Source: Closterium sp. NIES-65 (Eukaryota; Streptophyta; Zygnematophyceae; Desmidiales; Closteriaceae). Taken from it: DNA of 64,000 nt. How positions within the stretch are numbered: position 1 is the first letter of the stretch; each line of letters begins with the position of its first letter. A program made the translations under genes and the position numbers. The stretch spans positions 62,001 through 126,000 of the forward strand of contig CANXME010002320.1 in the NCBI GenBank assembly GCA_948144175.1, given 5' to 3'. The notes beneath the pieces are model-generated. The model did no database searches. It was not told the DNA's origin and worked only from the letters and a program-made list of their open reading frames with translations. Positions 16,555-49,549 of the stretch are shown here, piece after piece.

Positions 16555-17295
16555 AAAACTGATACTGAAGCTGCATCTTTGAGTGCAGGACCCAGGGATA
16601 ACATATTCGACGTACCCTACGATCCTATAAGCGATACCATCTACGGATACTCGGAGCAGCAGCAACCACTAGTACTCGAGGTGATCTGCAACGGGCGTCG
16701 CCTCCAGACCCTGGTGGACAGTGGTGCGTCCCACTCGGTGTGCGACCGCGGGACGTTGGAGAAAATTGGATAATCCTAAGAAGAAACCCAGTTTACAGCA
16801 ACGATGGTGGACGGTACGAAGCTTCCCATCCACGGAAAGTCAACACTGCAGCTGCAGATAGGGGCTTTGAGGTGGAAGCCGACGTTGCCGATCACAAACA
16901 TCAAGGGATTAGATTTTATCTTGGGGCGAGATTTCCTGAAGCAGTTCAACCCCGAGATCGATTGGGTCAACAGCAAGGTGTGCATCTACAACAACGGGAA
17001 ACGAGTGGAGCTGCGAAGCTTGACGGATACAGGGAGCGTTCCTGAAACGACACTGGCACGGTTCGAACGGACAGTGAACGAGAGTAACACGGGTTACTTA
17101 GCACTGGTTATAGCAGCAGCAGAGGAGGAGGTCTTGGAGCAGTACAAGGATATAATGCCCGACGACCTACCCACAGGCGTATCTCCAGCACGCACCCACG
17201 AGCACGAGATCGTGGAGGAACCAGGTGCGAAACCCGTCTCACGTGCACCATACCGACTGAGTCCAACTGAACTGACAGACATGAAAAACAGATAG
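16555..17295 (+). pseudogene. G1 aspartic protease region
   Basis: Downstream of the TAG at 16552 the same frame continues into a retropepsin-like domain: LVLEVICNGRR, the active site TLVDSGASHSVC, then two TAA codons at 16771 and 16777, then again in frame DGTKLPIHGK and the flap/second-half motif LDFILGRDFLKQFNPEIDW. The C-terminal stretch (EHEIVEEPGAKPVSRAPYRLSP) is the usual lead-in to Gypsy RT. The frame is lost at an A run near 17284-17288. Catalytic DSGA is present, but the stops prevent a complete product. Confidence 0.8.
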
Positions 17296-19310
17296 AGTAT
17301 CTACTAGACAGACAACTGATCCACCCATCCACCTCTCCCTACGGTGCACCAGTTCTCTTCACTCCAAAGCCAGACGGTAGTTTACGGATGTGCATCGACT
17401 ACCGCGCACTGAACAAACAGACAGCACTGACTACAGCGCCAGTACTCATCCTACCGGATCCAGACAGAGACTACGTGGTGGAAGCAGACGCTAGTGACCA
17501 AGCATTCGGAGCAGTACTGATGCAGCATCACGAACGCGGTTTGCAGCCCATCGCCTACCTCAGTAAGAAGCTACACGGAGCAGAACTAAACTACCCCATT
17601 CACGACAAGGAAGCCTTAGCGATAGTCATAGCCTTCAAGGCGTGGAGGTGTTACCTAGAGGGAGCCAAGACTACAGTCTATACTGACCACTGCAGTCTCA
17701 AATACCTGAAGTCACAGCCGACACTCTCACGACGACAGGTGCGGTGGGTGGACTTCCTGGAAACTCACTTCCACTACGACATCGTCTACAAGCCCGGGCT
17801 ACACAACAAGGCAGACGCGTTGAGCCGCCCCGGACATGTCGCAGGCATCCAGCTCGACGGGATGAACCCTCTGCTGAAGGGTCTATTCCAACATGGGTAC
17901 TCCGTGGACGCAGAGATTGCTACAGCACAGACCAAGAAGCTATTACAGTGGGAGAAAGACTTAGCTGTAAGGAAGGGTTCAGGAAAGATTTGGGTACCGA
18001 ATTACGCCCCGCTACGGCAGATCCTATTGGAGGAGTTTCACGACGTACCTTACGCGGGACATTTCGGGAGCAACAAGACGTTAGCAGGGATAGCGAAGTA
18101 TTACTACTGGCCCGGGATGGCAGTAGACGTGCAGCAGTTCGTCACCTCTTGCGACACGTGCCAGCGGATGAAGAGCAGCAAGCAGAAAAAAGCAGGGTTA
18201 CTTCAGCCTCTACCCGTACCGGAGCAGCCATGGCAGGTCGTTAGCCTCGACTTCATCACAGGACTTCCTTCGACCTCACGGGGACATGATTCCATCCTCG
18301 TGGTGATCGATAAGTTCTCCAAAATGGGTCACTTCATACCGACCAACGCCACAGCTACAGCTGAAGCAACTTCTCGCCTCTTCTTCGACCGCATCATCAC
18401 CATCCACGGCATCCCCACTACACTCATCTCAGACAGAGACCCCAAATTCACGAGTAAGTTCTGGAAGGAGCTCATGGGACTGTATGGGACAAAGCTTGCA
18501 ATGTCTTCTGCATACCACCCCCAGACTGACGGACAGACAGAGCGACTCAATCAAGTGGTTGAACAGATACTACGCACAGCTTGCAAGGACGACGTCAGCC
18601 ACTGGGACACACAGTTAGCGACCCTAGAGTTCGCTTACAACAACGCATCACATGCGGCCACAGGGAAAACTCCTTTCTTCCTATGTTCCGGACAGGAACC
18701 ACTCACACCACAGCAGCCAACCACACCGGCACACGTCCAAGCCGCACATGACTTCGTCACCACCATGGAGCAGCTATGGGAGAAGACTCAGCGACGTCTC
18801 ACCACGATGCAGAACTCCCAGAAGCAGTATGCCGATCGTCAGCGACGAGATCACTCAGTAGCAGTCGGAGATCAGGTGCTTCTTGACACACGCAACTTGA
18901 ACCTGTCTCACCTCCCATCCAAACTCCGGCCTCGCTTCTGTGGTCCTTTTCTCGTTGAGGCACAGGTGACACCAGTTACATTCCGCTTGCGCTTACCAGA
19001 TACATGGAAGCTTCACAACGGTTTCCATGTCCAGCTACTGAAGCCCTACAAGGACCCCAACCAACAGTTCCAGGGACGGCAACTACCGCCACCACCACCT
19101 GTTCTCATACAGGATGAACCCGAGTACGAGATCGAGCGCGTTCTCACCCATCGGCGCCGCGGTGGCAAGACCCTCGAGTTCCAGATATGCTGGAAGGGAT
19201 ACGACCCCACTGAGGACAGTTGGGTTGCAGAAGCTGATATGGGCAACACACGCCATGCTCTCAAGGACTATCTTGTCAAGCAGGGTGTATCTCACGCCAC
19301 CCAGCTTTGA
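17289..19310 (+). pseudogene. G1 pol: RT remnant, RNase H, integrase and chromodomain
   Basis: The frame reads the RT start (IEYLLDRQLIHPSTSPYGAP, GSLRMCIDYRALNKQT) and then, near 17420, jumps without frame loss to the end of RT (TTAPVLILPDPDRDYVVEADASDQAFGAVL). About 200 residues, including the YxDD active site, are gone. RNase H (DKEALAIV, TDHCSLKYL) is present. Integrase follows: zinc domain HFGSNKTLAGI and CDTCQRMK, core VSLDFITGLP, ISDRDPKFTS, SAYHPQTDGQTERLNQ with intact D, D and E. The C-terminus is a chromodomain (YEIERVLTHRRRGGKTLEF, CWKGYDPTEDSWV), marking a chromovirus. From 17388 to the TGA ending at 19310 it is uninterrupted (640 codons). Confidence 0.92.
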
Positions 19311-33685: not shown

Positions 33686-34190
33686 TGTGAGGCATGTTCC
33701 CTGATTCCTTACCGAGGCAGGTTCCTCTGGTCGACCACCAAGTGCCTCTGGTCGACCATAGCTCCCGTCGAGCTACCCCCTGGTCGAGGACCCCTCTATC
33801 GACCAGAATTGTCAGCTGTTGTCGCCGAGCTCTCCTCGTCGACCTCTGCTTACGTGTCACGTCGACGGACTGCTCTCTCGATTTCCCCGTCAAACTACTC
33901 CTCCTGATCGAAGGCCCACCCGTCAACCAGCCCAGTCAGCTGCAGCTGTTAAGCTCCGTGGTCCACGGCTCCAGTCCCGTGACAGACCTGTGCAGGTCGA
34001 CGATGACTTCGTCGTCCTGCCCCGCAGAAGATGGCCGTCGAACTCCCTGGTCGACGGCAACACCACACTGATTCCCTGCAGCTCGACAAAGCCCGTCGAG
34101 CAGCCCCCTTATTGTGAACAGCCGGCTGCTTCTCCCGTTCACCCGACCAGGATGTCGGCGTCACCCAAGCGTGGGCTGGGCCAACACTCC
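33686..34190 (+). repeat. Putative G2 3' LTR, GTCGAC-rich
   Basis: Starts TGTGAGGCATG directly after the polypurine-like run, as an LTR should. It is rich in GTCGACC words. The end cannot be fixed because no second copy is visible. The last part (about 34130-34200) resembles, when compared as protein, the Copia F segment around 42330, so the LTR may end earlier. Confidence 0.45.
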
Positions 34191-34194
34191 ATTC

Positions 34195-34505
34195 CCGTTA
34201 ACATAAGTAACGCAACTTACTCTAACTACCAACAACATGGGTAATTAACGCACTTACCTTTACGTGAGTAAGTAACGCACGTACTTATTCTTATTACCAA
34301 CAACATGGGCAAGTAACGCACTTACGCTTAATATTACCAACCATATGGGTTAGTAACACACTTATTTATAGTACCAACAACATGTGTAAGTAATGCACTT
34401 ACTCGTTACACCAACCTCAGGGGTAAATAATGCACTTACTATTACTACAATAACCTCGACAAGTAGTGCACTTATTCTTAATATTAACAACATGGGTAAA
34501 TATGG
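34195..34505 (+). repeat. Minisatellite array 1, about 36-40 bp unit
   Basis: Roughly eight diverged tandem copies of a unit near TACCAACAACATGGGTAAGTAACGCACTTACTCTTA. The same unit recurs in the same orientation at 48155-48503. No coding role is visible. The right end meets C3 gag leader sequence. Confidence 0.85.
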
Positions 34506-41151: not shown

Positions 41152-42490
41152 GCAGCCCCACACTCGCAGCGTGTCAATTGTTAGCTTCTTGCTAACCCAA
41201 TGCTCATACCGCACTCAGTGGTTGTCACCAACATTCGCCAAGACTCTATTCTTGTCTGAAAAATAATGTCAAACAGCGCCACGCCAGAACTTGTAGGGCA
41301 TTCTAGCAGCTCCTAACAAGGTCTTAGCCGCCTGGCCAATGGTCTGGTTGACACGCTTGGCAATGCTGTTTTGCTGCGGTGTTCTCGGGCATGTCAGCTG
41401 GTGTCGGATGCTGTTCCTTTTGAGAAACCTGGTGAAATCAGTTCCAAGGAACTCACCAACACGATTACTCCTAATCACTTTCACCAGTCTCATGGACTGT
41501 CGCTCTACCATCAGTATCCAATCCTCTTTAATTTCTGCCGCAACATCATTCCTTTTGGAGAAGGGACGAGCCCATGTGAATCGGCTCCAGTCGTCCATCA
41601 TGGTGAGAAAGTACAATGCTCCCCTAGTCCCGTCAGTCCGCGTAGGACCTACAAGATCTATGTGCACCACCTCTAATGGTGCCTTCGCTGATCCCTCCGC
41701 ACGTGGGAACGGGAACCGCACGAACTTGTTCTGCATCCCTGTCTCGCAGCCGCCAAAGGCAGCGCCATCTCTATGCACTTGCAGGCCGTGCATGCACTTC
41801 TCATTGTACATTAATTTCAAAGTGGAGACAATTACATATGCAAGTCGTCGTAGCTATGTCTCCCAAGACGCTTGGCCCGAGGTAGATGACGCCTTTATGG
41901 CTGCGCTTGCGCTAATCAACTTCTCACTTTGCACACAATATTGCTCCTCCATTGAAGCCACCGCAGCCGCATCGCCCGATTTATGCCAAGAGAGTACCAA
42001 AATTTGCCACATGCGTTGGTCGACATCTCCATTGCGCTGCAGATCCCAAATATGGCGCGTATCATTATGTGCACGATAGTGAGCCAATTGTCTTGGTGTC
42101 CCCACCTGCATCTCCCAATCGGCCAGTCGAAATCAGGTTCGCGCACCCATAGCGCGTTATTGAATCCCACAAGCTCACCATCCGCTCCCATGAACTTAGT
42201 GCTTCCCATGCCATGACTTTGGCCTTCGCCAATCTTGGATGTGACCGTAGAGATCCTTGCGGACTAGATCTCATCAATAAGATCCGCACGAGGATCATGT
42301 GTGTCAACAGGAGTTGGATGTTGGCCCCATCCTCGCTTGGGCTGAGTCGACTTCGTCATCAGGTATGCGGGAGGTGCAGCCGACCTGATAAAGTGGGAGA
42401 CGCCGCCTTGGGCGCGCAGGTCGACCAGTTTTGTCAACCTGTCACACATGTGGGGAGCTTGGGTATCTGAGGCAGGAGTGTCCGAGCGCC
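41152..42490 (-). pseudogene. Copia element F: protease-like region to integrase, decayed
   Basis: A third Copia lineage on the minus strand. From right to left: a linker (STQPKRGWGQHPTPVDTH), degraded protease-downstream motifs (ADGELVGFNNALWV), then integrase from 41820: GMQNKFVRFPFPRAEG, VVHIDLVGPTRTDG, FLTMMDDWSRFTWA, VIRSNRVGEFLG, and TPQQNSIAKRVNQT. The second catalytic Asp is Asn (RSNR for RTDR) and Glu is replaced by Lys (IAKR for VAER), so it is inactive. It ends in DTLRVWGC at the C4 LTR. RT, RNase H and LTRs of F are not visible. Confidence 0.75.
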
Positions 42491-42884
42491 CCAACGTGCG
42501 ACCGATGCGGGAGAATGGGTATCGTTCAAACGACTGCTATCACGGAAAAGCGGGAGCGGAGACGCAATCCAAGGACGACCTGCAGGAGGAGATAAGGGAG
42601 CTGCTGTCTCGGTTAGAATGGATGCCGAAGGCAAGAGATAAAAGCCAGGATGTTGGCCATCAAATTGGTAGTGGAGGGAGAATTGCGGGAAGACGAGCTC
42701 GTGCCGGATATGGCTTTATGGCGCATTCCCGGGAGAAAAGCGACATAGACTTATAGTCATGCACGGAACTGACAGGAGAGTCGAACACGACCAGCCGAAG
42801 GGAGCGGGGGCCAGCACACAGGGAAGGTGCTACTAGAAGCAACATGCGGAGGCACCCTAACGAAATGATGGTGTACCAGGCCTA

Positions 42885-43130
42885 AGTTCTCATTGCCGAG
42901 AAGGGCAATTTGACGGTGGGAGGGCGTCCAGTCGGGCAAGGGATCATCAATACCGGCGCATACCAGGTCATCATCAGCAAGAGATTGGCTAAGCAGCTAA
43001 AACAAGATCTGCCTGAAAAGCAGATCGAGAGAGGCATCCTGTAAATGATGGCCGAAGGAGGGGAGCCGAAATGGATGCCGAGCACCAAGAGACCCGTGGA
43101 GATCGCGCTTCTTCCCAGCACGGATAAAGA
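42885..43130 (+). pseudogene. G3 retropepsin-like remnant
   Basis: Translation gives VLIAEKGNLTVGGRPVGQGI followed by INTGAYQVIISKRLAKQL, which fits a retroviral-type protease start with DTGA changed to NTGA, then a stop at 43042 and PKWMPSTKRPVEIALLP. Position upstream of RT agrees with a protease. The similarity is short, so this is a moderate call. Confidence 0.5.
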
Positions 43131-43479
43131 ATGCTCTATCCGGCTGAGTGTGGGGTGTCGCGGTCGGAGGAATACGACAACCTGGTGGGGATGGAACTAT
43201 TGTACAAGGTGGGGCCAACAATATGCACATGGCAAGACAAGATGCTGTATAGGGTGCCGTATTGGGACCCAAAGAGTTCAGTGGGGACGTTGCCGTTCCG
43301 CTTCGTGAAGCAAGGACCCAGGGTGGCTTACAGAGCGGAGGAAGCAGACCTGTCCAAGGATCTAGATGACTGGACGTGGCAGGAATATGCCAAAGAAGGG
43401 ATGCGAAGGATCGAACAGAGCGAGACGGGGAGGAGAGTGACGGACCTGAAGGAGCCAGTAAGTAAGATTTGGTGTCTTG
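43131..43479 (+). pseudogene. G3 linker between protease and methyltransferase-like domain
   Basis: Open, in one frame with the following domain: LVGMELLYKVGPTICTWQDK, YRVPYWDPKSSVGTLPFRF, LDDWTWQEYAKEGMRRIEQS. The first part (LVGMELLYKVGP) could be the C-terminal part of the protease. I recognise no other domain. Confidence 0.45.
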
Positions 43480-44037
43480 AAGGAGCCGCGTATATCCTGG
43501 AGTTACATGGAGGCATCGGGATGTGGTTGGCCGCGGCGTTGAAGGCAGGCTGCTTTACGAGGAAGTGGATACACGTGGAGAAGGATCAAGTCGTGCGTAA
43601 GATGGCGTGACATCACGTGCTTAAGCTACCGAAGGAATACACACAGCAGATGGTGATTACGGCTGTCCCAACCGAGAAAGAAGAGGCGGTCCACGATATG
43701 AGAGACATCACTGGCCAGCAGCTGGAGAGGTGGGGACCCATAGACCTGGTAGTGGCCGGGTGAGAATGTCAGGGATAATCACGAGTTGAAGAAGGGAGGG
43801 GAATGGACGAACCCAGAGGCAGAGGCTACACCCCCGACTGGTGAAGGACATACTAGGCCAGAACCGGGTCCTTGCGCCGGTGATTACCAAGGATCATCAC
43901 GCGCAGTACCAGTGTAACGTGCCGGGGGAGCCCAGGAGAGCGTGGCTGACCTTGGTTTCTTTTGCAGACGCGCGAGGCTTTGTAATGGAGGGGTACATGC
44001 CGGGTCCTGGGATGGTTTACGACTCGCGTGCGGAGAT
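43480..44037 (+). pseudogene. Cytosine-5 DNA methyltransferase-like domain, N-terminal part, in G3
   Basis: In the frame ending at a TGA (43608) and continuing beyond it: ILELHGGIGMWLAAALKAG fits motif I (cofactor-binding, ELFxGIGG-type); WIHVEKDQVVRKMA fits motif II; GPIDLVVAG-x-ECQG-x-S fits the region around catalytic motif IV, with CQG kept but the Pro before Cys replaced and both x being stop codons (TGA, TAA); RGMDEPRG follows as in many family members. The segment expected to hold motifs VI and VIII is missing, and a frame change near 43835 leads to VKDILGQNR, GEPRRAWLTLVSF and GPGMVYDSRAE. An active enzyme would transfer a methyl group from S-adenosylmethionine to cytosine; this copy cannot. 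The family call is by motif pattern only. Confidence 0.7.
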
Positions 44038-44998
44038 AACTCTATGAACGGGAGCTTCTACAGGCAAGGCACAAGGTAGAAGTGTTCTCTGCGTTCAATC
44101 CTTAGCCGTTACTCGTACTCACACTACTTAGGTATTCACAGGGAAATCCGGCAAGAGTTCCACTAGCAAGAGTTCATAGAACAAAGGTTCAGAATGACAA
44201 CAAGGTTAGCAAGACTGACTACATCAGAGCTAGCATGCAAGTCGATCGACTGCCAGCGTAGCACGGTCGACCGCGGTCCAGCACGACATGGTCGACCACG
44301 CTCCAGCAGTGCAAAGTCGCAGCCCGCCAACGCTGCTAACGACGGCGTGCCAACATCGCAAGGCGACAACGTGCCAACGTCGCAACTCGCAGGACACCCG
44401 CGCACTTGCATTATAGGTGCTCATTGATGATTGGCGTGCTGTGCCTTGTCACCTGCACAGCGCACACACCAAATCGTCCTCGTGCTGACGACGGCACCTG
44501 ACCAGCTACTTCGACTTCGGGATACCACCACCGCGGTCGGTCTCGCCAAAACCACCTGGGCGACCGTCGCACTCCTCCACAGAACCTCGTCGCCCGGGTA
44601 ACCTGGTCGACCGTGCAACCTCATCAACCAGCTCCTTCTCCTGGTGCTCGTCGACCTCCCAAGTCGATGACCACCTCCAGTCAACCACACCAGGTCGACC
44701 TCACCCATAGTCGACCAATTTCAGGTCGACCACACTCCTGGTGGACCAACTCCAGGTCGACCAGCACATCTGTCGGCCGACCGCCCTAGTCAGCTTTTAT
44801 AATTCGGTGTCATCAAGTCGACGCCCTCCACAGGTCGACCTCCTGAAGTTGGTGCCGTCGGCGCCCCCGTGCAGGTCGACCCGTCGACCAGCTCGCCCAC
44901 TACTGCAGATCGGCTGCACCTCCCACACACCCGACCACGAGGTCGGCTCCGCCCAACCGAGGACGGGGCCAAACACAACTCGCGTTGACATCGCGTAC
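44038..44998. other. GTCGAC-rich insertion inside the G3 methyltransferase-like domain
   Basis: About 960 bp unrelated to the coding sequence on either side. GCGGAGAT occurs at both borders (44030-44037 and 44999-45006), which could be an 8-bp target duplication. No clear terminal inverted repeats or TG...CA ends were found. GTCGACC occurs about a dozen times, mostly 44260-44900, the same bias as the putative G2 LTR. Could be a decayed element or LTR; type unknown. Confidence 0.5.
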
Positions 44999-45002
44999 GC
45001 GG

Positions 45003-45175
45003 AGATGTGACGCACCGACGGCGGAAGAAAGGGAGTTGGCAATGAGGCACAAGTAGGGGGCAACGGCACACCCAAAAGTGACAGAAGCTCAGAGGAGGGC
45101 GGCACTCGGACAGGCAATGGACCTGAATGTGATGAGATGGGATACTGAAAACCATTTGCATCTGAAGACTAAGGC
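45003..45175 (+). pseudogene. Methyltransferase-like domain, C-terminal part, in G3
   Basis: Reads CDAPTAEERELAMRHK, a TAG, then GATAHPKVTEAQRRAALGQAM followed by DLNVMRW. TAEERELAM before a short gap and LGQAMDLN fits the late region and motif X (GNAV-type) of a C5 methyltransferase, and it continues what was interrupted at 44037. The following 45176-45460 is open but low-complexity (RGSNNQNRGGQERGREGFG), probably a linker to RT. Confidence 0.6.
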
Positions 45176-45459
45176 AATACATCGAGAATTTGAGGGGAGC
45201 TTGCGCTACCAAGACGAGAGGGAGGCGGTGTGGTGGAAAGCATCAAAGCCTAGCGCACCGAGAGGATGATGAAAGGGTGGTCTTTGATGGCAGTAAAGAC
45301 GAACCCGGACGCCAAGGAAGGGGAGCAAGGGGTTCGAATAACCAAAATAGAGGAGGTCAAGAGAGAGGAAGAGAAGGATTTGGAGATAGGCAAAGGAATG
45401 GGGGCAGAAGCCGCAGCCGCCTTAAGGGAAGTATTGAAGGAACATTGAGGAACGTCCGC

Positions 45460-46265
45460 ATTCAGACTGAAGGAACTGGGCTGCTGCAAGGTACAAAAGA
45501 TAGGTATAACACACAGCAGTGAGTCACCAGTGTACCAACGGAAGAGGAGGCTGGGTCTCGGCGACATGGAACTTTGTGTCTCTAAGTGCGAAGAGCTGCC
45601 GAGGCGGGGCTGATACAGAGGTCCGAGAGTGAGTTTGCAGTGGCAACAGAAGTGGCGGCTCGGACTGATATCACCGGGGAGGTGTCAGCCAAACGAACGT
45701 GCAGGGATTACCGAGGGATGAACAAAGCGACCGTGCCAGATATGTACCCGATGCAGTCGTCGGAAGAAATATTCGATAAACTGCATGGGGCTGTCGTGTT
45801 CTCCACCTTGGACCTAAGACAGGGCTTCAACCAGATCCTTGTCAGGAAAGAGGATCGCAAGAAGATGGCTTTCCATGGCTCTGATGGTCAGTACGAGTGG
45901 AAGGTGATGTCGTTCGGCATGATCAACGCGCCGTCAGTGTTCTAGCGCACCATGTATACCATACTTCGGGGTGTACTGGAATTAGCTTGCTGCATAGATG
46001 ATGTGATAGTATTCAGTTTGATGGAGGAGGAGCACATGAAGGACATTAAGGAAACCTTAGAGGCGATAAGAGATGCGGGCCTGACATGTCACCCGAGGAA
46101 ATGCAACTTCGGGCTACGGACTGTGTAGTACTTGGGTTTCGGGGTAGGAGACGGAAAGCTGGGAGTACATGAGGCTAAGGTGGAGGTCCTGGATCGAGTC
46201 CCTAACCCCACAGACCGATCCTCGTTACGGGCAGGCCTCGAATTCTTGGGGTATTACTAGACGTT
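45460..46265 (+). pseudogene. G3 Gypsy reverse transcriptase
   Basis: Begins with an N-terminal lead (about 45445-45590, shifted frames), then EAGLIQRSESEFAVATEV, CRDYRGMNKATVPDMYPM, FSTLDLRQGFNQILV (motif A Asp present), YEWKVMSFGMINAPSVF. A TAG at about 45943 replaces an expected Gln (F-stop-RTM), followed by CCIDDVIVFS, in which the YxDD tyrosine is Cys but both Asp remain. HPRKCNFG, a second TAG and YLGFGVG follow. The order and motifs are those of Ty3/Gypsy RT. Decayed by point stops rather than deletions. Confidence 0.8.
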
Positions 46266-46329
46266 CGTGACAAACTTCAGCAGAACGGCGGCAGTACTGA
46301 ATAAGCAGCCGAGAGAAGAGCAAAAATGT

Positions 46330-46730
46330 CAGAGGAGAGAAGAAGAGCAGACAGCCACAGTACTGGTACTGCCGACCAAGGAAGATCTGTTCGTGCTGTT
46401 CACCGACTGGAGCAACGCAGGAATGGGAGCGATATTGTACCAGGAGAAAATGGGGAAGAAAGGGTAGTCGAGTTCGCAAGCCGTAGTTGCAACCCCGCGG
46501 AAGCAAACTACAGCACATACGAAGGGGAAGGATTGGCAGAGGTGTGGGCGATTACTCGTTTCAGATTGTATCTGCAAGGAAGGCCTTTCACGCTAGTCAC
46601 ATACAGGCGCTTATGGGGAGGAACGGCAGATGTGCCATGAGGCTGCAGGAGTACGACTTCGTCATCAAACACAGGCCGGGCAAGAGCATGCAACACGTAG
46701 ATGGTTTCTCGTGGAATACTGCGCTGGAGA
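46330..46730 (+). pseudogene. G3 RNase H
   Basis: LFVLFTDWSNAGMGAILYQE carries the first catalytic Asp of retroelement RNase H. After a frame change, SCNPAEANYSTYEGEGLAEV and WAITRFRLYLQGRPFTLVTY follow, and in another frame LQEYDFVIKHRPGKSMQHVDGFS, the usual end of Gypsy RNase H. At least three frame changes. Non-functional. Confidence 0.75.
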
Positions 46731-46929
46731 GATCCGCGGCATGCCTAGTGGCTATGGCGCTAGGAATCGATCAAGAAGGAGCAAGGAAGAGCAAGGAAAG
46801 AGGACCTGAGGATGTATGGGAGGATACGGAGGTGCTACGATGGGTGCAAGGCAAGATCAAAGAAGAAGAGGCGGTAGCTGAGAGGGTAAGAGCCAGAGGA
46901 GCCCATGACAGATGATACCAGGACCAGCT

Positions 46930-47500
46930 ACAGGTGAAAAACGATGGAAGGTAGAGCTCGAGCCAGCCCAGTGAGAAGACATCAGCGCGCGAGTGCACCG
47001 GTATCTAGGGCACTATGGGAGGCTAAGGACGCAGCTACTAGTGGAAACCACGTGGCGGTGCGTGGGATTGCGCAAGCACTGGAGTGAGTGAAGAGCTGCG
47101 AGCTCTGCAACAGAAACAGGGCGGAACTGGACAGAGGAAGGCAGGAACTACAACCCTTGCCAATATCGGACTGGGGTCCCCGTGGTCCTTAGATTTGGCA
47201 GGAGAGATGCTGAGTCGCAAGGAGAAGAGGTATAACCTCATTATGATAGAACATGCACGTAGCTGCACGTAGCTCAGCTGACGGATGTGCAGAGCTACAA
47301 GCAGAGGCGAGCCAAGAAGGAAGGAGGCGGACCAAGGACATCCAGCCAGGAGGGGAAGTATACTTGAGGCAGGCAAAAAGCGATCTGTTGGACAAAGGGC
47401 TAACTACAGAACGGTGGAACGTAAAGGAGGTGAAGGAATTAGGAGTAATAGTGTTGGTGAGCGCTAAGGGAGAGGAGCGGAAGGACCATCGTGGTAGTGG
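46930..47500 (+). pseudogene. G3 integrase zinc region and C-terminal tail
   Basis: GHYGRLRTQLLVETTWRCVGL followed by CELCNRNRAEL matches the H-H/C-C zinc-binding start of Gypsy integrase (HYGIKKT...C-x2-C). The core begins (GPRWSLDLAGEML-like) but is cut after about 47250; most of the DDE core is missing. A tail (DIQPGGEVYLRQAKSDLLDKG, TTERWNVKEVKELG) follows. The region 46731-46929 holds only a charged linker. 47500-47616 ends in a purine-rich stretch (CTAGGAGGGGGCAC) that may be the polypurine tract. Confidence 0.6.
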
Positions 47501-47616
47501 CTAGACCTCGGCATGGAAAAGCTGTCCTGAAGAAAGGAGTAAATCAAGGCCCCTCTGTCAACAGAGGAAATAATCAATTGGCTATCCCAGGAGAGAGGCG
47601 CCTAGGAGGGGGCACA

Positions 47617-48150
47617 TGAGGAGACAGAGAGAGAGGGCACCCGAACTAGAAGGGAGACAAGAAGGATTCAACGAAAGGAGAGGCAAGACCGGGAACAAGG
47701 TCAGGAGGAGCAAGATTCCGACAGCTGCCACACAATAAAAAACGCAGCAGTAGAAGTTATAGGAGATATGGAACCTTGATATAATTGTGTAACAGGGTAG
47801 TGTAGAAGCATACTGTAGAGAGAACAAAGGGCTAGGCGGGAACCGAACCTGGCGAGACCCACAACGCAGGAAAGCTCAGAAGTAACAACGGTTGGTAACG
47901 GTAAGTGTCTGAATCGTACTTCGAAAAGCAGTGCGCCGTAAACTCACTGCTTGCTTGTTTGTTTATTTGATTAGCTAAAGAATCATTCAACCCTACCTAG
48001 AGAAGCCAGATCAAGCAGCAGCCAGCCGAGCTAATCAAGCCCGAGTCCAGGAGACAGAAAGAAAGGGCACCCGAACAATAAGGGAGGCAAGAAGGATTCA
48101 AAGAAAGGAGAGGAAAGACCGGGAACAAAGGAAGGAGGTGAAAGATTCCA
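47617..48150 (+). repeat. Direct repeat pair of about 100 bp (47617-47720 and 48047-48150)
   Basis: Both copies share GGAGACAGA, GGGCACCCGAAC, AAGAAGGATTCAA, GAAAGGAGAGG and AAGACCGGGAACAA in the same order, roughly 85% alike, with starts 430 bp apart. The interval has no coding capacity. It could be parts of two G3 LTR-like copies or a local tandem duplication. Confidence 0.6.
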
Positions 48151-48154
48151 ACAA

Positions 48155-48503
48155 CTTAGTACCAACAACATGGGCAAGTAACGCACTTACCCTTTGTACC
48201 GATGCACTTACTCTCGGTACCAACCTCATGGGATTAACGTACATACTCTCAGTACCAACCTCATGAGAAGTAACGCACTTGCTCAAAGTACCAACCACAT
48301 GGGAGAATATCCAACCTACACTCAGTACAGACCACATGGGTAAGTAACGCACTTACTCTTAGTACCAGCCACATCAATAAGTAACGCACTTACTCTTCGT
48401 ACCAACCACATCGGAAAATAACAAACTTTAGCACCAGCCACCCGGGGAAAGTAACGCCCTTACTCTTCGCACCAACTATATAGGAAATGAACGCACATAC
48501 TCT
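48155..48503 (+). repeat. Minisatellite array 2, about 36-bp unit
   Basis: About ten diverged tandem copies of TACCAAC-ACATGGG--AAGTAACGCACTTACTCT-G, same unit and orientation as array 1 at 34195-34505. C5 inserted at its right edge after ACTCT. Confidence 0.85.
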
Positions 48504-49549
48504 TGTTGAGTGCAAATTCACATTGCATTACATCCTGCCGTCTGTTAGTACGAGTATGCTTGTGCGAATGCATTTCCGTGTGAATGGTGTGTTCGTTTGT
48601 TTGTTTGATTTCACAATTTTTCGCATGATGAATATGCAGTACTTGTGCAATGTGCGCTTCGGCACAACATTGTATGCGCTATGAACACTGCAAGCAGAAA
48701 GGACGAGCTCGCAAAGGAACCCAAGATGGAAGTTTTGCGGTTCGGTTTATTTGATTGTGCAGATTCAGTTCTAACCAACTCGAAATTGAGCTGTTTTGTT
48801 CGGTTGACTATAGTGTAGCAGGGCAGGCCCAAAGGAGTATCTGCATGCTACAGGGCCAAGGGAAACCAGCGGAACCAGCATTTGGCTGGTTGGGCAAAGA
48901 CAAAGCAGGTTCTGTTTTTAGGACCTGAACCTGGTTGTGGTTTTCCCATGTTGGAAAAACAGAACGAGAGGCTGTTTACCAACCTAGCTGCTGGTTTGTC
49001 CAGCCATGTTGGTTCTGTTGCTTGGAATTATTTGAAATCATCCTCAGTTGTTCCCAGGTTAATTCCCAAGGTCCTTGCTAGCTATAACTATTATATTCTT
49101 CTCTGTTTGTACCTGGATATAGTCTATATGATTCAAGCGTATTCCTTCCTCGCTAGAATATCGTTTCTACGCGGTTCGACGGTAGAATGCTACCGAATCA
49201 ATGCTAGTACGCTAGCTCTCCAAATGCTAGGCAAACGCATGTCTGAGCCATAAATTCGTAATGGCACAACTTTTCGCGAGGCAACTTGGCTTATTTCATA
49301 GCACTTGGAGCGAGCTTTGATAAAGCGAAATCTCAGCTTAATCCGATCGACGGTCTGCACAGCACGCTGCGCGATGTTCAAGGTACCCTTGCTCATTTGG
49401 CTAAGTCATTCTTGACTCCTCTCTCTAGAAACTCAGAACCGAAGATAGGGGCTGGTCTTGTACCAGGCAAGGACCCTTGGACCCCGAAGAGAGATTTTAA
49501 GTTTGAGTTAGTCTTAGTAGCTTAGGTTTATTAGGCCTTTACACCAACA
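48504..49549 (+). repeat. C5 5' LTR (1046 bp, diverged)
   Basis: TGTTGAGTGCAAATTC...TTACACCAACA with many substitutions and small deletions relative to C1, the oldest-looking C LTR here. TGGTTTCAGAGC, the primer-binding site, follows at 49553. Confidence 0.85.

Follow-up and report, generated by a model that had tools for sequence, protein, structure and literature searches.

The 64,000-nt window of Closterium sp. NIES-65 analyzed here (contig CANXME010002320.1, positions 62,001 to 126,000, forward strand) contains a relic that, by comparison with related loci, is confirmed as a decayed Gypsy-type retrotransposon copy that carried its own predicted DNA methyltransferase (DNMT). The relic is of the Ty3/Gypsy type and combines a DNMT3-like domain in Pol with split terminal repeats, and the predicted methyltransferase probably serves to mark new element DNA. 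It spans approximately positions 42440 to 48153 of the window and lacks the 5' end, DNMT motifs VI to VIII, and part of the integrase. An earlier note on this DNA gave the extent as 42885 to 47500; this interval lies inside the element but is too short, with gag remnants starting at ~42440 and 3' terminal repeats reaching 48153. The same relic is found on two other contigs at 99.97% and 99.8% (3,633 positions compared), which are perhaps haplotigs.

All coding remnants lie on the forward strand. A C-terminal remnant of gag with a degenerate zinc-knuckle region (42440 to 42861) is recognized by tblastn with the gag of the related locus L019, which matches 42440 to 42682 (31%, 2e-5) and 42514 to 42861 (40%, 1e-13). 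It is followed by an aspartic protease remnant with stop codons (42862 to 43215), seen through the alignment of residues 411 to 640 of the L013 polyprotein with 42517 to 43215 (36%); hmmscan of the relic pieces gave no protease Pfam match in the relic itself. The DNMT-like domain comes in three pieces, each matched by the L019 domain: motifs I to IV with internal stop codons (43386 to 43829; 55%, 8e-45), the target-recognition region, which holds QYQCN and GPGMVYD and lies in a different frame (43811 to 44023; L019 domain residues 228 to 298, 68%, 2e-25), ahead of which motifs VI to VIII are absent, and the C-terminal part with the motif IX-X region, ERELAM and LGQAMDLN (45000 to 45224; residues 302 to 377, 63%, 2e-21). 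The gap from 44023 to 45000 between the last two pieces corresponds to an insertion of ~960 bp (44042 to 45000), whose boundaries and apparent short duplication on both sides were judged by eye; within it, 44893 to 44990 resembles the inverted stretch 42302 to 42400 (79%). Downstream, a reverse transcriptase (RT) continues into RNase H at 45604 to 46461 (64% to L019 pol), with the Pfam matches RVT_1 at 45586 to 45942 (1.5e-11) and RT_RNaseH_2 at 45949 to 46470 (3e-6). The end of RNase H, the integrase N-terminal region, and the start of the integrase core follow with frameshifts at 46449 to 47257 (L019 pol residues 848 to 898 and 910 to 1132), and a C-terminal integrase remnant lies at 47340 to 47624 (residues 1329 to 1429, 40%, 2e-15), ahead of which ~200 integrase residues are absent. 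These matches and remnants downstream of the DNMT pieces bear out the proposal of a Gypsy relic.

The blocks on which the methyltransferase reading was originally based (ELHGGIG, WIHVEKD, DLVVAG..ECQG, GPGMVYDS, and LGQAMDLN) are all present in the window, with a stop codon inside motif IV and GPGMVYDS positioned between motifs VIII and X. When the DNMT domains of 14 relatives were aligned with the window by tblastn, 11 gave three collinear pieces, and the other 3, which were shortened queries, matched in one piece. The strongest single match is that of L026 (158 bits, 3e-47), and the top identity is that of L010 (75% over 80 amino acids), compared to a top score of 29.3 bits for the same 14 queries against 200 base shuffles of the region. 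Residues 148 to 227 of the L019 domain, containing motifs VI and VIII, have no counterpart in the relic by tblastn. The PF00145 profile search that the earlier note had proposed gave no match on the relic: hmmscan of its six pieces upstream of RT returned no Pfam family at an E value of 1 or better, and a PDB search with the relic DNMT piece gave DNMT3B/3A at E values of 0.019 and above only. The DNMT identity is nevertheless settled because relatives in the same genome match PF00145. All seven related loci tested, translated with X at stops, score above the cut-off (36 to 40 bits versus 22; E values of 4e-10 to 5e-9).

Among 901 candidates in the 874-Mb genome, 123 scored places show PF00145 (best, 2e-8), many of them in open frames of 1,000 to 2,300 amino acids. 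In the seven tested loci, the domain lies 3' of the aspartic protease in the four with a visible protease and 5' of RT in the two with a visible RT. The Pfam order in four polyproteins is protease (seen in three of the four), DNMT, RT, RNase H, and integrase, so that the placement of the methyltransferase after the protease and before RT, already suggested for the relic, recurs in its relatives. RT, RNase H, and integrase stand in Ty3/Gypsy order in all four, and the family, with the layout gag-CCHC-protease-DNMT-RT-RNase H-DDE integrase, is assigned to the Ty3/Gypsy type by domain order and the predicted DDE integrase. A tree of 18 DNMT copies shows five groups; groups held by both the DNMT and RT trees recur in both, and the deep order differs at moderate support. 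The RT of L019 forms an odd long branch in the RT tree. As judged from these comparisons, the genome holds hundreds of relatives in several groups, some of them young.

Matches to solved structures suggest a DNMT3-like domain, with phage C5 methylases matching as well. A PDB search with the domain of the relatives gave 45 matches, 29 of which are DNMT3A, DNMT3B, or DNMT3C (best, DNMT3A, 3.3e-8), and Cys, ENV, and HRxR are aligned in the nearest of these; beyond DNMT3, HhaI (5e-4) and 4onj (0.06), which we take to be a plant DRM, were matched. The phage search produced 117 matching records (best among the matches listed, 2e-11), and the best 10 of the 117 show 25 to 30% identity, with 9 of the 10 annotated as DNA methylases. 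Contigs of IMG/VR and GTDB searched with the DNMT alignment yielded 49 and 121 pattern stretches, respectively, none of them related by tblastn. That the DNMT resemblance is due to chance or to another domain is refuted by PF00145 in the related loci, the DNMT3 structure matches, and the tblastn matches to the window; the missing PF00145 match of the relic itself is all that speaks for this reading, against scores far above those of the shuffles, leaving it a vanishingly small probability.

The active site is largely conserved in the aligned open copies: the catalytic Cys of motif IV is found in 17 of 18, the Glu of motif VI in 18 of 18, and the two Arg residues of the motif VIII Arg-x-Arg in 17 and 18 of 18, residues whose roles in C5 methyltransferases are given in the excerpted text of PMC4802922. 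The ECQG site had been called unusual, and rightly so: the residue preceding the catalytic Cys, normally Pro, is Glu in 18 of 18 copies, and a genome-wide count of two exact motifs gave 645 sites for AGWECQG and 0 for AGWPCQG. ECQG is thus no local mutation of the relic. The Pro of the consensus PCQ/PCN is not found ahead of the Cys, and the Pfam cut-off does not demand it. Motif VI has His instead of Asn in 2 of 18 copies. Both exchanges could weaken catalysis and would fit a reading in which the DNMT fold has lost its catalytic function and is retained to bind DNA, AdoMet, or host DNMT partners, for example, for steering integration or competing with host silencing. The retained Cys, Glu, and Arg residues count against such a role because binding alone would not require them, as does the low dN/dS (median of 0.070 over 10 usable DNMT pairs and of 0.14 over 5 RT pairs, these pairs being few and related), making a dead fold unlikely.

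An active DNMT acting mainly on the host, either changing host methylation or reducing transposition and thereby host damage, is comparably improbable. Both versions are discussed in the cited part of the study by de Mendoza et al. from 2018 (PMC5890265), and the high copy number implied by the 645 motif sites is in their favor, but substitution patterns do not set the DNMT elements apart. Transitions between the terminal repeats A1 and A2 affect 15 of 392 CG, 9 of 522 CHG, and 12 of 1,629 CHH sites, and the control of other window repeats (78 overlapping, nonindependent pairs) gave, relative to CHH, an odds ratio of 2.0 at CG and of 1.1 at CHG sites. In seven element pairs, the CG odds ratio ranges from 1.7 to 8.7 (2.2 and not significant in L013/L020). 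The CHG odds ratio is 4.3 to 6.9 in three L017/L025/L027 pairs, 2.3 in L019/L026, 1.8 (not significant) in L013/L020, and 0.9 in both L012/L016 and L015/L023, confining the strong CHG excess to one subfamily. The young L017/L025/L027 pairs lie above the control, with differing ages. Since the CG-transition excess also occurs in other window repeats, it is no sign of element-specific methylation; the excess would at most reflect host methylation and is not proof of the element's own enzyme.

The 3' end of the relic consists of the terminal repeats B1 (47619 to 47723; 87% to 48049 to 48156, ending in ..CCGACA like the relatives), A2 (47726 to 48048), and B2 (48049 to 48153), a direct repeat of B1 and the 3' end of the element, all on the forward strand. 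The B1-A2 junction reads GACAGCTGCC at 47720 to 47729, and the window does not contain the A1 partner of A2. In L010, the B1/A2 junction is matched by 47716 to 47843 (76%), and positions 69 to 207, taken as the A1 of L010, are matched by 47917 to 48056 (73%). Among 19 fetched copies, mostly chosen for long open frames, 7 show split direct repeats of the DIRS-like order A1...B1-A2-B2. A1 and A2 are 97.1 to 99.7% identical in nine copies, seven of which also have B1/B2, and the other ten have no long A1/A2 pair; the near-identical repeats show the youth of some copies. Ten of the 19 have the junction (GACA-GC-TGTC), one mismatch being allowed, and the other 9 lack it. Target duplications of 4 bp occur in all five resolvable copies, and the integrase D-D-E is found in 9 of 10 polyproteins. 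Elements of the DIRS order carry a tyrosine recombinase and are not known to produce a target-site duplication. Membership in that order is ruled out by these duplications and by the rve integrase in four polyproteins, in which no tyrosine recombinase family was found by Pfam.

The likeliest role of the domain, as judged from these features, is self-methylation of element cDNA. RNA starting in A1 and ending in B2 would be copied into full cDNA, with the B1-A2 junction serving as a template joining both cDNA ends, and the DDE integrase would then insert this cDNA. Made along with RT, the DNMT would methylate freshly copied element DNA no later than its integration, and this DNA would arrive in the genome premarked, most likely to resemble host DNA or for protection. 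The presence of a DNMT1-RFD domain in the host genome is counted in favor of this explanation, as is the CG methylation by SymbioDIRS DNMT3s in yeast described below, and the yeast result for the KnitGypsy-Dnmt3 domain is counted against it. More tentatively, a lineage-wide remodeled cytosine methyltransferase, in which Glu stands for the near-universal Pro throughout five groups and hundreds of copies, may have changed its substrate within a hybrid life cycle of DIRS-like end-joining template and DDE integration; candidate substrates are the nascent hybrid of RNA and DNA, cDNA in single-stranded form, and cytosines outside CG.

These elements pose the puzzle of a parasite carrying the very enzyme class used by hosts for silencing. 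Hundreds of sites belonging to several groups, some of them young and with open frames, allow element-borne methylation to be compared among groups as well as with neighboring elements without the gene. The Glu beside the catalytic Cys represents a natural experiment on a methyltransferase active site, and the DDE integrase with split-repeat ends breaks the usual equating of such ends with tyrosine recombinases.

The animal enzymes DNMT3A and DNMT3B, the best solved-structure matches, share motifs I, IV, VI, VIII, and X in the usual order but have PCND in motif IV in contrast to ECQG, which here lies inside a retroelement polyprotein. PAT and Ngaro are tyrosine-recombinase elements. Together with VIPER, likewise a tyrosine-recombinase element, they share the A1...B1-A2-B2 layout according to the cited part of PMC6681497, whereas the Closterium family has a D-D-E integrase and target duplications. 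The dinoflagellate elements SymbioDIRS-Dnmt3 and SymbioLINE-Dnmt are also retrotransposons with a captured DNMT, of the DNMT3 type in SymbioDIRS, where it produced CG methylation in yeast; they are DIRS-class elements with a tyrosine recombinase or LINEs, in contrast to the DDE integrase and 4-bp duplications found here (PMC5890265, cited part). The precedent that the earlier note names from Klebsormidium proved correct: in the portion of their paper considered here, de Mendoza et al. describe KnitGypsy-Dnmt3 of Klebsormidium nitens, with Dnmt3 in the Pol ORF, Gypsy domains, and DIRS-like repeats, all features shared with the Closterium family, as is purifying selection on the DNMT (PMC5890265). 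Its domain gave no methylation in yeast, a result that those authors consider inconclusive, and they report fewer copies in K. nitens than in Symbiodinium, compared to 645 motif IV sites and five groups among 18 copies in Closterium. The DNMT position between protease and RT and the Glu before the Cys may be common to both families. Going by that portion of the paper, this kind of element is already described, and Closterium is another green host.

The relic of the Gypsy-type element (~42440-48153) is by itself too far decayed for profile detection. A Pfam search of nine relic pieces matches, among the relevant families, only the reverse transcriptase (RT) and RNase H, with PF00145 absent from all nine. 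The protein of 43128-43763 shows PDB matches to DNMT3B, DNMT3C and DNMT3A at E values of 0.019 to 0.85 (23 of 32 listed), the remaining 9 being unrelated proteins with E values of 1.0 or higher; 43480-44037 shows no PDB match. The identity of the domain is decided by relatives within the same draft genome (874,075,685 bases, 2400 contigs). The search for intact relatives proposed in the earlier note yields 123 scored PF00145 places among 901 candidates (best E 2.0e-8), many of the 123 lying in open frames 1000 to 2300 aa long, and PF00145 exceeds its cut-off in seven related loci. The 43128-43763 protein finds 150 scored places among 1162 candidates, headed by the window, followed by this relic on two further contigs and then by copies at 76% and lower. 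Identification of the domain as a methyltransferase is practically certain.

Open copies mapped back on the window place gag remnants from 42440, followed by the protease, the DNMT split over three pieces, RT, RNase H and the integrase in two pieces. This mapping bears out the position noted earlier for the methyltransferase, after the protease and before RT, and the motif blocks named there are present in the window sequence. Without match in this mapping are ~200 integrase residues and the part of the DNMT that carries motifs VI and VIII. The relic region reaches 158 bits, compared to a top score of 29.3 bits over 200 shuffles. Its DNMT is interrupted by a ~960-bp insertion (44042-45000), which contains short tandem repeats with GTCGAC; the end of the insertion is repeated in inverted orientation at 42302-42400 and in direct orientation at 34123-34204. 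A tandem repeat with a diverged 37-bp unit adjoins the relic 3' end (48154-48510) and is found again 14 kb off, at 34205-34503.

The element domain is classed from its sequence as a DNMT3-like C5 methyltransferase. The domain of one related locus, L006, matches 45 PDB sequences, 29 of them DNMT3 (best E 3.3e-8), in an alignment spanning residues 5-185 with the motif IV Cys, motif VI ENV and motif VIII HRxR in register. The motif order is not rearranged, in contrast to that described for plant DRM (PMC5890265). The catalytic chemistry is attributed to the motif IV Cys, motif VI Glu/Asn and motif VIII Arg residues (PMC4802922). Among the 18 copies with an open frame across the full domain, the Cys is kept in 17 (Arg in L035), the Glu in 18, the Asn in 16 (His in 2) and the two Arg in 17 and 18. 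The ECQG site, flagged earlier as unusual, proves to be the norm among the copies compared: Glu directly precedes the Cys in 18/18 open copies, and AGWECQG is present at all 19 fetched related loci, the relic not counted. Genome-wide, its codon pattern is matched exactly at 645 sites (313 on the forward and 332 on the reverse strand, against 0 for a reversed-pattern control), a raw pattern count that excludes decayed motifs and may double haplotigs; AGWPCQG has no site. In M.HhaI the carbonyl of the Pro at this position bonds the ENV Asn (PMC4802922), and the change to Glu therefore affects the point where two catalytic motifs connect. Among the literature matches listed for motif IV, none has a title on a Pro replacement of this kind. 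Median dN/dS (NG86) is 0.070 for the DNMT (10 of 153 pairs) and 0.14 for RT (5 of 105), from pairs with lineages in common and after omission of those with dS beyond 0.05-1.5, zero non-synonymous change or no computable value. These values resemble the Ka/Ks below 0.2 given for Klebsormidium nitens (PMC5890265). The DNMT is probably an active enzyme.

Four polyproteins, two of which (L011 and L018) have frames beginning within the coding region, show the Pfam order zinc knuckle (2/4), protease (3/4), DNMT, RT, RNase H, integrase zinc finger and integrase core (last five 4/4). The integrase D, D and E residues are present in 9 of 10 polyproteins, the exception, L013, losing its frame past the second D. 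The termini were studied in 19 relatives fetched for PF00145 matches and mostly picked for long frames. A direct repeat (A1/A2) of 403-675 bp at 97.1-99.7% identity is found in nine; L020 has a match of 118 bp at 80%, and no direct repeat is reported in the other nine. Sister-copy comparison extends the homology beyond the 3' repeat, with the segment immediately upstream recurring immediately downstream, which gives the layout A1-ORF-B1-A2-B2. B1/B2 are present in seven of the nine copies with the long repeat; L013 is without B2, and the L028 locus is cut there. The element starts with TGTC and ends with GACA, and B1 and A2 meet in the palindrome GACA-GC-TGTC, exact in 9/19 copies, one base off in L012 and absent in nine, none of which yielded a long A1/A2 pair. 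Read by eye in the five copies with both flanks and B2 found (L011, L016, L018, L023, L025), the 4 bases preceding TGTC equal those following GACA in every case. By sister-copy matches, L015, L022 and L027 apparently have a single B and no A2, a state that would fit A2 loss via B1-B2 recombination. Among L017, L025 and L027, which are young sister copies, CG and CHG transitions make up most of the differences (odds ratios 4.3-8.7); several other pairs do not show this. The relic has B1, A2 and B2; A1 was not found within the window.

At 17217-18704 lies another decayed Gypsy stretch, with RT-RNase H-integrase, about 27% identical to the pol of the DNMT family and without a DNMT domain match in tblastn with family domains and polyproteins. 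The window, mostly at 23418-64000, also contains nested elements with ~1.1-kb repeats (78 overlapping repeat pairs, 85-99% identity), copia-type as judged by eye. A DNMT1-RFD match (E 6e-17) on two contigs makes maintenance methylation likely in the host. The Rubisco large subunit encoded on the rbcL contigs has as its best PDB matches what we take to be green-plant chains. None of the 34 EF-Tu matches in the genome lies on these contigs, and tufA therefore seems to be outside the plastid, which fits land plants, Zygnematophyceae or close streptophyte kin. Full-length rbcL matches occur 2-4 times per contig on C40, C75, C97, C162, C824, C1848 and C2174, in alternating orientation and with uneven spacing, owing either to rearrangement of the plastid molecules or to an artefact of assembly.

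With parts, order, ends, duplications and conservation observed, the most likely mechanism is one in which the B1-A2 junction would serve as the template joining the element ends in reverse transcription and the DDE integrase would insert the product. The DNMT, produced along with RT, might methylate the new element DNA, a step we put forward tentatively, at slightly less than even chance. De Mendoza et al. themselves propose cDNA methylation, and the activity in yeast of the DNMT3 from SymbioDIRS, their dinoflagellate elements, supports this step; their yeast test of the K. nitens DNMT3 was inconclusive and gives no such support (PMC5890265).

Split direct repeats are described as characteristic of PAT, Ngaro and VIPER (PMC6681497). 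Those are tyrosine-recombinase elements, whereas the present family has a DDE integrase leaving target duplications. For KnitGypsy-Dnmt3 of K. nitens, one legend sentence gives DIRS-like repeats together with Gypsy domains (PMC5890265). Methyltransferase domains are also carried by DIRS1-like elements (PMC3266345), and a 2025 paper (PMC12344493) cites de Mendoza 2018 and names Copia and DIRS elements. Judged from titles and the opening lines of abstracts, PMC5890265 alone among the listed literature, whose scope lay outside bioRxiv and most subscription journals, treats cytosine methyltransferases in retrotransposons. The family thus belongs to an already known kind, as the earlier note had suspected: DNMT-bearing retrotransposons were described in 2018, and the large expansion and the ECQG motif are the distinguishing features of the family described here.
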